Assembly (NCBI RefSeq): GCF_900113225.1
Contig: NZ_FOZE01000001.1
Coordinates: 186,001-250,000, forward strand
Reading direction: 5' to 3'
Length of the DNA: 64,000 bases
DNA from: Mitsuaria sp. PDC51
Lineage (GTDB): Bacteria > Pseudomonadota > Gammaproteobacteria > Burkholderiales > Burkholderiaceae_C
Shown here: positions 2,413 through 45,894 of the stretch, piece after piece
Numbering within the stretch: the first letter of the stretch is position 1
Layout: each line of letters begins with the position of its first letter
Position numbers and translations under genes: made by a program
The notes under the pieces: generated by a model
The model's input: only the letters and a program-made list of their open reading frames with translations
Database searches by the model: none
What the model was told of the DNA's origin: nothing

Positions 2413-3804
2413 TCAGCGATCCGCGTTGAACTGGATTGCCGCAAGCATGCGCGTCAGCTTCTCGACGCGCGACGCCGCCAGGAACTGCCGCGCCCAGGCG
2501 AGCCGGCCCAGCAGCGGCGCGCGCAAGGCCGGATCCACCGGGACGGATCGCGACCGCAGGCCGAGCTGGTGCAGTTCCGCCTTGAGGCGGTCGTAGCGCT
2601 CGCGCGCGAGATTCGGCCGCGTGTTGACGACGACGCCGGTGACGGACTGGCGCCCGCCCGCCGGCATCGCGCGCGTCTTGTCGCGCCGCAGGCGGAAGCC
2701 CTCGTCCTCGACGATGGCCGTGACCCAGGCGCGCAGCGCGCGTTGATCGCGGCGCAGCGAGGCGGGCCCCGAGAACACCAGGTCATCCGCGTAGCGCGTG
2801 TAGCGCGCACCGAAGCGCCGCGCCAATCCGTCCAGTCGCAGGTCCATCGGGAACGCGCACAGGTTGGCCAGCACCGGCGAGGTGGGCGCGCCCTGCGGCA
2901 GGTGGAAGGACGCGAGGCGCCGGGCGCCGTCGGCATCGATCGAGTCGTCCTCGCGCAGTCGCTCGCGCAGCGGCGCGGGCGTGCGGGTCAGGCACAGAAG
3001 CACGAGGCGCTCCACCACCGCGTCCGGCAGGCCCAGCGTGCGCAGCGTCGCGCGGACCCGCGCCCGGCCGATGCTCGGGAAGAAGTCGCGCAGGTCGAAG
3101 CGGATCACGAAGTCCTGGCCCGCGTGGCCGGCCGCGTGCGTCGCGACGTTGCGGCCGCGCACGAAGCCGTGCGCCGCCTCGTGGCAGGGCAACTGCTGCA
3201 GGAAGTCGTCGAGCAGGCGGCGCTGCAGGGTCTTGAGCCGCGGCATCGGGGCCTCGATGAGGCGCAGCCCGCCGCGGCGCTTGGGCACGAGCAGGCCACG
3301 GTAATGGGGCGTCGGATGCGCATGCGGTTGGCGTGGCGTCGCGGTGCGCTCGCGGTACTGGCGCGCGGGACCGGCGAAGTGATCCAGCTCGTCGAGCGTG
3401 AGGCCGAGCCAGGCCGCGAGATCCGCCTCGGTCGACCAGTCCGGCCGCACCAGCGATGCCAGCGCCAGCGGAGGCGGCCGCAGGCGAGACGGTCGCAGCA
3501 GCAGGCGGCGCACCGTCGGCCGTGGGCGCTCCGGATCGAAGCCGGCGTGGAATGCCTCGAGCGCTTGCAGCGCGTCGGCGAGGCTCGCCACCGAGTGGGC
3601 CAGCCACACGGGCCCCGCCCAGCGCGCCAGCTCGGCGCACAAGGGCGTGAGCCAAGGGCGCGCTTCGGCGCCAAGGCATTGCTCCGCGCGCGCCTGCAGC
3701 GCATGGGCCTCGCGGCCGCGTGGCGCGTCGTCGTCCGTCTGCAGCGCCCGCGCGAGCGCCAGCGCGATCCAGCGGGGATAGGTCAGCGGCGCGGCAAGGC
3801 TCAT
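2413..3804 (-). CDS. Retron-type reverse transcriptase with N-terminal extension
   Basis: 463-residue RNA-directed DNA polymerase with a complete RT core. Motifs: HYRGLLVPKRRGG (about 167-179); AHGFVRGRN (211-219); catalytic D237 in FDLRDFFPS; LPQGAPTSP (302-310); YADD with D340 and D341; GFRLRRDKT (369-377); and QSVTGVVVN (386-394), where VTG is the retron-specific domain-Y signature. The retron domain-X NAxxH motif reads HAAGH (223-227), so the usual Asn is His. About 160 residues of mostly helical sequence precede the core. Such an extension is known from myxobacterial retron RTs, which like this one have no adjacent toxin or effector gene. No group II intron maturase or integrase domain is visible. 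Composition matches the native genome. The start ATG follows GGAG by about 12 bases. Upstream lies a structured RNA candidate with its own promoter. Confidence 0.9.
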   Translation of the reverse strand: MSLAAPLTYPRWIALALARALQTDDDAPRGREAHALQARAEQCLGAEARPWLTPLCAELARWAGPVWLAHSVASLADALQALEAFHAGFDPERPRPTVRRLLLRPSRLRPPPLALASLVRPDWSTEADLAAWLGLTLDELDHFAGPARQYRERTATPRQPHAHPTPHYRGLLVPKRRGGLRLIEAPMPRLKTLQRRLLDDFLQQLPCHEAAHGFVRGRNVATHAAGHAGQDFVIRFDLRDFFPSIGRARVRATLRTLGLPDAVVERLVLLCLTRTPAPLRERLREDDSIDADGARRLASFHLPQGAPTSPVLANLCAFPMDLRLDGLARRFGARYTRYADDLVFSGPASLRRDQRALRAWVTAIVEDEGFRLRRDKTRAMPAGGRQSVTGVVVNTRPNLARERYDRLKAELHQLGLRSRSVPVDPALRAPLLGRLAWARQFLAASRVEKLTRMLAAIQFNADR

Positions 3805-3877
3805 TGGCGTGGAGGCTCTCCAGGATCAGCGACGCGACCGGGGAAAAGGGCTCGGTCCGCGGCGGACGGCAAGGGGT

Positions 3878-4037
3878 GACCTCCAGCGACCGCCAACTCA
3901 CCGGTCCCGCCGATTCAGGTCCGCGCGGCAGCGCGGCGCCGAATCCGCGCCGGATGTCTGACTGTGGAGAGCGCCGCGAGGATGCCCCGCGGCCGGAGGC
4001 GCGAACGCTTCCGAAAGGCTTGGCGGCGCCGGAGGTC
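3878..4037 (-). ncRNA. Candidate retron msr-msd RNA
   Basis: Read on the minus strand, GACCTCCGGCG (4037-4027, candidate a1) pairs with CGCTGGAGGTC (3888-3878, candidate a2) over 11 bp with a single G-U, enclosing about 138 nt. Inside, in order: an AGC at 4020-4018 whose G is a candidate branch nucleotide; a small hairpin GCG-TTCG-CGC; a hairpin with CCGCG/CGCGG arms (3992-3974); and a long hairpin of GATTC/GAATC outer arms and CCGCGC/GCGCGG inner arms with a TGCC loop (3945-3912). The RT start codon is 73 nt downstream. Order, strand, spacing and closing duplex match retron msr-msd-RT architecture. That it is reverse transcribed is inference. Confidence 0.6.
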
Positions 4038-4044
4038 GGCGGCG

Positions 4045-4074
4045 ATTATGGGTGCGGGCCGCGAGTGCGCTCAA
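4045..4074 (-). promoter_or_regulatory. Sigma-70-like promoter for the retron RNA
   Basis: Minus-strand TTGAGC (4074-4069), an 18-base spacer and CATAAT (4050-4045). The predicted start point, 7-8 bases further on, coincides with the first base of the candidate a1 segment at 4037. It lies between the LysR gene's stop and the reverse transcriptase. Confidence 0.5.
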
Positions 4075-44748: not shown

Positions 44749-45879
44749 ATGATCCTTTCCGAAGACCACCGCGCCGTGCAGGACGCCGTCCGCGCCTACG
44801 TGCAGGACCAGATCGCGCCGAAGGCGGCCGAGTGGGACAAGTCCCACCACTTCCCGGCCGCAGAGCTCAAGGGCCTGGCCGAGCTCGGCTGCTACGGCGT
44901 TGCCGTGCCGCATGAATACGACGGCGCGGGCCTGGACTACCTGGCGCTGGCGATCATCCTGGAGGAGATCGGCGCCGGCGATGGCGCGACCTCGACGGTG
45001 GTCAGCGTCAACAACTGCCCGGTGTGCAGCATCCTGATGGCCTTCGGCAACGAGGATCAGAAGGAGCGCTTCCTCAAGCCGCTGGCGCGCGGCGACATGC
45101 TGGGCGCGTTCTGCCTGACCGAGCCGCATGTGGGCTCGGAGGCCGGCGGGCTGAAGACGACCGCCGTGCGTGAGGGCGACGAGTACGTCCTGAACGGCGT
45201 CAAGCAGTTCATCACCAGCGGCAAGAACGGCGATGTCGCGATCGTGATGGCGGTGACGGACAAGGCGGCCGGCAAGAAGGGGATCTCGGCCTTCCTGGTG
45301 CCGACGTCCACGCCGGGCTACGTGGTGGCGCGCATCGAGGACAAGATGGGCCAGCACGCCAGCGACACGGCGCAGATCCTGTTCGAGAACTGCCGCGTGC
45401 CCGCCGCCAACCGGCTGGGCGACGAAGGGCAGGGCCTGAAGATCGCGCTGTCGGGACTGGAGGGCGGCCGCATCGGCATCGCATCGCAGTCGGTGGGCAT
45501 GGCGCGCGCGGCCTTCGAGGCGGCGCTGCGCTACAGCAAGGAGCGGGTCGCCTTCGGCGTGCCGATCTTCGAGCACCAGGCGATGCAGCACAAACTCGCC
45601 GACATGGCCACGCAGATCGAGGCGGCGCGCCAGTTGATCTGGCATGCCGCGTCGCTGAAGGACGCCGGCCAGCCCTGCCTCAAGGAGGCGGCGATGGCCA
45701 AGCTCTTCGCCAGTGAGATGGCCGAGCGCGTCTGCTCCGCCGCCATCCAGATCCACGGCGGCTACGGCTACGTCAGCGACTTCCCGGTCGAGCGGATCTA
45801 CCGCGACGTCCGGGTGACGCAGATCTACGAAGGCACGTCCGAGGTCCAGAAGATCCTGATCGGACGCGCGCTGGGCTGA
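44749..45879 (+). CDS. Acyl-CoA dehydrogenase (short-chain type)
   Basis: 376-residue flavoenzyme oxidising an acyl-CoA to the 2-enoyl-CoA. FCLTEPHVGSEA and FITSG bind FAD. The catalytic Glu is at the usual C-terminal place (YEGTSEVQ), unlike the upstream isovaleryl-CoA enzyme, whose base lies in helix G. IQIHGGYGYVSDFP is conserved. It starts 4 bases after the SDR stop. Probably butyryl- or branched-acyl-CoA specific; the exact substrate cannot be read. Confidence 0.9.
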   Translation: MILSEDHRAVQDAVRAYVQDQIAPKAAEWDKSHHFPAAELKGLAELGCYGVAVPHEYDGAGLDYLALAIILEEIGAGDGATSTVVSVNNCPVCSILMAFGNEDQKERFLKPLARGDMLGAFCLTEPHVGSEAGGLKTTAVREGDEYVLNGVKQFITSGKNGDVAIVMAVTDKAAGKKGISAFLVPTSTPGYVVARIEDKMGQHASDTAQILFENCRVPAANRLGDEGQGLKIALSGLEGGRIGIASQSVGMARAAFEAALRYSKERVAFGVPIFEHQAMQHKLADMATQIEAARQLIWHAASLKDAGQPCLKEAAMAKLFASEMAERVCSAAIQIHGGYGYVSDFPVERIYRDVRVTQIYEGTSEVQKILIGRALG

Positions 45880-45894
45880 AGCCGGCGCCACGTC

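Follow-up and report, generated by a model that had tools for sequence, protein, structure and literature searches.

The window, by which we mean the whole 64,000-nucleotide stretch of Mitsuaria sp. PDC51 that was analysed, very probably contains a retron of an untyped reverse transcriptase (RT) clade whose unit consists of a non-coding RNA and an RT only and which is predicted to produce msDNA. Retrons are usually explained as three-part phage alarms. We observed a conserved RNA structure, a pairing of this RNA with the RT, a modelled RT with retron fold and phylogeny, selection on the protein and no widely shared neighbour. Judged by sequence, every feature tested appears retron-like except the N of the NAxxH motif, and three points look new: no linked effector was found, the N-terminal domain appears to be without known relatives and the RNA is without an Rfam match. 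The features are as follows.

2413..3804 (−): gene of the reverse transcriptase (463 aa; carries YADD and VTG)
2413..3462 (−): part with the retron-type RT fold (residues 115-463 and the stop codon)
3463..3804 (−): N-terminal extension, residues 1-114, modelled as six helices (residues 9-89) followed by a linker with conserved basic residues
3878..4037 (−): msr-msd-like structured RNA, 160 nt; covariation, z −4.66 and a match of 133 bits to the RNA model R1, which has the window sequence among its 15 building sequences
3878..3896 (−): a2 arm, from covariation and the window fold
3909..3948 (−): msd-like hairpin with an outer and an inner stem (helices 6 and 7)
3973..3993 (−): msr hairpin 2 with a stem of 9 bp and a loop of 3 nt, which the RT is predicted to bind (helix 5, 99.1% of cells paired)
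3994..4013 (−): msr hairpin 1, from the window fold (helix 4, 85% of cells paired)
4019 (−): G immediately 3' of a1, predicted to prime and form the branch; G in all 25 aligned RNAs, context mostly CAAG
4020..4037 (−): a1 arm, pairs with 3896-3878
4045..4050 (−): −10 box CATAAT, identical in 14 of the 16 aligned relatives
4069..4074 (−): −35-like TTGAGC, 18-nt spacer to the −10 box; TTGA in only 5 of 16 aligned relatives

The TTGAGC-N18-CATAAT promoter that an earlier, sequence-only reading had proposed, with transcription predicted to start at the first base of a1, was found in the window sequence in all its parts. The promoter alignment covered 16 relatives including the window's own sequence, with three more distant loci omitted.

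Structure of the RNA and its pairing with the RT

The same reading had closed the RNA with an 11-bp a1/a2 duplex. The location of the duplex holds, as a1 starts at 4037 and a2 ends at 3878, 160 nt in all. Its length does not: an a1 of 18 nt faces an a2 of 19 nt with a small interruption, which makes more than 11 bp. The AGC noted after a1 is present at 4020-4018, directly following the longer a1. The RNA (4037-3878) folds at −97.7 kcal/mol compared to −79.2 for dinucleotide shuffles (z −4.66, none of 200 as good). For a wider 276-nt segment the fold was not exceptional against shuffles (z −0.78; 45 of 200 as good) and thus the folding energy of a roughly bounded segment could not have decided the matter.

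Covariation of the a1/a2 pair in homologues had been set as a test of the proposal, and the pair does covary. Across 15 sequences we observed changes on both sides in 19 of 44 pairs compared to a shuffled mean of 9.9 (none of 500 as high), and 91.5% of the cells pair in these relatives versus 37-49% with the structure slid. When 25 relatives were aligned to the RNA model, which biases the alignment towards the structure, 39 of the 44 pairs changed on both sides and 94.2% of the cells were paired. All six inner pairs of a1/a2 (helix 3) change on both sides in some of these 25 sequences, and so do all 14 pairs of the msd-like hairpin (helices 6 and 7) in at least one sequence. Hairpin 2 is the most conserved stretch of the RNA with an identity of 0.74 compared to 0.44-0.62 elsewhere. 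A search of Rfam gave no match to the RNA. As far as can be read from the sequence, the anatomy agrees with that given for retrons in PMC6868368 (section 6): an upstream RNA, an a1/a2 closure of 8-30 nt, a G at the inner end of a1, an msr that has 1-3 hairpins, each about 7-10 bp long, and an msd hairpin. According to the same section RT-Eco1 requires an msr element with an 8-bp stem and a 3-nt loop, and RT-Eco3 one with a 9-bp stem and a 3-nt loop.

From this layout we infer the following course of events. The transcript would begin at or near 4037 and fold with a1/a2 closed, and the RT would bind the msr via the 9-bp stem and 3-nt loop of hairpin 2. The 2'-OH of G4019 would then prime reverse transcription and the RT would use the stretch from a2 to hairpin 2, no more than about 76 nt, as template for a branched msDNA. 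The helical domain fused to the RT (residues 1-114) would stand in for a separate accessory protein.

The RNA was found at all 28 family loci (L001-L018, L034, L038-L041, L105, L106, L125, L126 and L133), a count kept apart from the remnant L024 and from re-fetched copies (L031-L033, L035, L123, L124 etc.). R1 was built from 15 family loci and detected the RNA at 10 loci absent from its building set, with 41-79 bits at L015-L018 and L038-L041, 46.8 bits on a Burkholderia cenocepacia replicon (L105) and 27.8 bits (E 8e-4) on a Tsukamurella plasmid (L106). The last match is weak by score; its inner a1/a2 pairing is perfect by eye. At the remaining 16 of the 18 loci in the scan that included L105 and L106 we detected nothing with R1 at E<=0.1 (best 0.12), and at the loci of other RTs (L019-L022, L036, L037, L042) nothing at E<=1. 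The second model, R2, was built from the first 25 of the 28 loci and found the RNA at all three new full-length members (L125, L126 and L133; 69-73 bits), which were drawn from 398 phylum and 274 class genomes and include two near-copies (L125 and L126); the other 33 of the 36 loci tested gave nothing at E<=0.7. A search of 100 whole genomes for the RNA resulted in 17 matches, 16 of which adjoin a family RT (the one in G066 has an in-frame stop) and one RT remnants (G010). Owing to its strict filters this search missed the family RTs of G064 and G097, both recovered by the locus scan only. The RNA accompanies the RT across genera, up to the Tsukamurella plasmid, and the pairing is strict.

On another reading the system is not a retron, and the RNA would act in cis as a regulatory leader of the RT mRNA or serve as a DRT-like template. 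Such a role would fit with the position of the RNA, which lies on the strand of the RT gene and ends 73 nt ahead of its start codon. We consider it improbable, given that the RT clade and fold are those of retrons, that the a1/a2 closure, invariant G and msd-like hairpin form a retron layout and that none of the other RT loci tested yielded the RNA.

Several individual loci deserve mention. The Tsukamurella plasmid carries a family RT with its RNA in the Actinomycetota, which suggests wide transfer or great age, and a HAD-like gene follows this RT after 28 nt. At L016 (G066) the family RT contains one in-frame TGA and the RNA structure is kept. The locus in G010 (L085 / L024) is a decayed site-A copy, with part of the RNA and RT fragments between LysR and DUF488. 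Within the window a weak match to the RNA model (20.9 bits, E 0.056) at 45757-45887 (−) is probably due to chance.

The reverse transcriptase and its N-terminal domain

A full RT core with the retron VTG had been recognised from the sequence, and the ORF at 2413-3804 (−) bears this out with both YADD and VTG. YADD occurs in all 84 aligned relatives; region Y reads VTG in 60 of them, ITG in 20 and otherwise in 4. The HAAGH that had been remarked upon in region X in place of NAxxH was confirmed, and the family as a rule has HAxxH: at residue 223, 78 of the 84 relatives have H, 3 have N and 3 have F. Fourteen of 16 validated retron RTs have NAxxH, and it is a usual rather than a defining retron feature because the validated Ec48 and Mx65 RTs are also without its N. 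HAxxH and the lack of an evident effector gene, a usual retron part, are among the points against the retron reading.

Phylogenetic placement of the RT, suggested earlier as a check, put it among retrons. In the tree, which took in retron-type and group II intron rows and no DRT rows, 32 retron-type rows split from 4 group II intron rows at 100/100. In the model, residues 115-463 show the retron RT fold and align with solved retron RTs. The best PADLOC profiles for the window RT were RT_other (384 bits) and RT_outgroup (368 bits). Against RT_other two of its kin reach 501 bits (L038) and 471 bits (L041), and so the family lies in or near the source sequences of RT_other/RT_outgroup. The PADLOC profiles already cover these RTs and we do not claim the clade as undescribed. 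A type XIII assignment was rejected, as RT_XIII was neither the best match nor a full-length one (283 bits, third rank, residues 121-452 only); the type XIII control L042 matched this profile with 584 bits over residues 3-521. We also rejected a group II intron (40 bits) and a DRT (Drt2, 36 bits), both far below the cut-offs and the former also separate in the RT tree.

The control L042 is itself a retron RT, the second one in the window's genome (G000:C4 near 750319), and consists of a 638-aa ORF from ATG whose C-terminal end is hydrophobic by eye and resembles membrane helices. Long RTs of this kind also occur in G001, G005, G008, G015, G033 and G091. A third retron-like RT of the genome lies at G000:C6:1186490-1187548 (389-aa frame, RT_outgroup 201 bits).

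The N-terminal extension had been put at ∼160 residues. An extra domain is indeed present; it spans only about residues 1-114 because residues 115-164 already align with the solved retron RTs. Over 12 pairs dN/dS was 0.16-0.42 for residues 1-114 compared to 0.09-0.24 for residues 165-463, and both the RT and its extension are under purifying selection. These values, together with the YADD present in all 84 aligned relatives, speak against a selfish or decaying relic, as which the remnant in G010 and the in-frame stop in G066 could be taken and which we regard as highly improbable.

For residues 1-114 Pfam gave no match at E<=1, a search for free-standing homologues found none, the PDB sequence search gave no notable match and a fold search returned one weak row. 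The proposed likeness to the extended myxobacterial RTs found no support when we compared the N-termini with those of type XIII, which we take to be the myxobacterial retrons: the two do not align (hhalign probability 0.2%), and kinship with the type XIII extension was rejected. Because no linked gene fills the role, we tentatively suggest, at a little under even chances, that residues 1-114 act as a built-in partner or effector and so replace the accessory protein that other retrons encode separately. This role is inferred from the absence of other partners.

Neighbourhood, chromosomal sites and distribution

Within the genus we found a full-length RT in 12 of the 15 other genomes, so that the locus is intact in 13 of 16; G010 has remnants only and the family is absent from G002 and G006. 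RNA and RT occupy two unrelated chromosomal sites. Site A comprises 8 intact loci (own included) close to a LysR gene; a sensor kinase flanks the opposite side at 7 of the 8, and the contig of G009 ends before that position. Site B comprises 5 loci beside antiporter-like and GST-like genes (names by eye), at least one of which stands on each side in all five. In these five genomes the convergent kinase comes immediately after the site-A LysR (by eye), and we found no RNA there. All site-B RTs fall into a single clade (100/100), and in the LysR tree the same genomes come together at 88/87. The simplest reading of these trees would be vertical inheritance with a single relocation between the sites.

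The convergent downstream neighbour was correctly named and is a DUF488-N3a protein. DUF488 was rejected as part of the unit as it occurs at 3 of the 8 intact site-A loci. We compared the neighbours in all frames for 22 of the 28 family loci, representing 11 sites (L034, L105, L106, L125, L126 and L133 were left out). The RT was present at all 11 sites and a shadow-frame-like cluster at 9; apart from these two, no neighbour family occurred at more than 3 of the 11 sites and the shared ones were seen at 2 or 3. Ten neighbours from six loci gave no match to PADLOC at 1e-5. Among the neighbours compared no linked or fused effector is recognisable; the N-terminal domain is a possible candidate.

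A three-part retron of the conventional kind, with its effector gene at a distant place in the genome, seems unlikely to us. To our knowledge, retron effectors of the known types are linked or fused, which counts against it, and so does the scarcity of shared neighbour families. An unlinked effector would presumably escape our neighbourhood comparison, and according to PMC12548924 the known defence retrons need an effector.

Some neighbours are of interest in their own right. A Fic-like protein (name by eye) is found at L072 and L073, two of the five site-B loci, and at the unrelated L081 (2521-3678), and is the sole toxin-like-looking neighbour family seen at two sites. Directly downstream of the RT in G030 lies a small gene pair (L076:6420-7130) which is Phd/VapC-like by eye and has no PADLOC match. 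At site A in G015 a 665-aa ORF of unknown kind (L070:6797-8794 (−)) separates LysR and the retron; the gene comparison showed nothing equivalent at the other site-A loci, and the ORF has no PADLOC match.

The distribution allows for a retron with a vertically inherited housekeeping role outside defence, in which the extension would stabilise the RT or the msDNA. Its presence in most of the genus at two stable sites, the agreement of the RT and neighbour-gene trees for site B and the matching plasmid (0 of 104) and phage (0 of 29) records, none of which has a place covering 80% of the RT, are in line with this. The same has been argued in print for myxobacterial retrons, whose vertical inheritance is described in PMC6868368 and PMC8867640. 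Absence or decay in G002, G006 and G010 shows that the locus is dispensable, and its sparseness across the order at large, where a sample of 399 genomes gave 8 (own included) at E<=1e-60, looks like that of a defence system. We therefore consider a housekeeping role conceivable, with the chances somewhat against it. Equally tentative is the broadest form of the retron reading, namely a class whose effector would be a small helical RT N-terminal domain of a new type instead of a neighbouring gene or a known fused enzyme. RNA and RT would then work as a unit of their own in two phyla or more, possibly with a vertically inherited, non-defence job.

Comparison with known retrons

The family is a compact RNA and RT pair present in many chromosomal copies and missing from a few close relatives; its extra domain is defined and conserved, and its RNA model has been tested by covariation. 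Together these features make the purpose of an effector-less retron directly testable. The family also supplies new RT-msr pairs for in-cell DNA production.

The retrons with solved RTs (Ec86/Eco1, Ec67/Eco2, Ec78 and Eco8) resemble the window system in the RT fold over residues 115-463, YADD and VTG; unlike them, it has an extra N-terminal helical domain and HAxxH for NAxxH. It also shares with retrons an upstream msr-msd-like RNA, a1/a2, the G after a1 and an msr hairpin with a 9-bp stem and a 3-nt loop, whereas the usual linked or recognisable fused effector was not found here. PADLOC RT_other and RT_outgroup are bare RT profiles with no type, RNA or partner attached. Type XIII-like retrons (PADLOC RT_XIII, L042) share the retron clade and an N-terminally extended RT. 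They differ in clade (the two are separate, at 98/99 and 100/100), in an extension that is unrelated by profile and in loci to which the RNA model has no match. The Variovorax 'retron type XIII' named in PMC11953036 may be either a type XIII RT or a member of the window family.

Some retrons, according to PMC8867640, are apparently without a linked effector and without a known job. The myxobacterial retrons and their kin were compared by description only: the msd of Mx162 has 162 nt compared to the at most about 76 nt predicted here, and the G after a1 stands in CAGC/GAGC (PMC6868368) rather than mostly CAAG. Mx162, Mx65, Sa163 and Ne144 are like the window family in having an N-terminally extended RT, there of unknown function, and in being inherited vertically (PMC6868368 and, for inheritance, PMC8867640).
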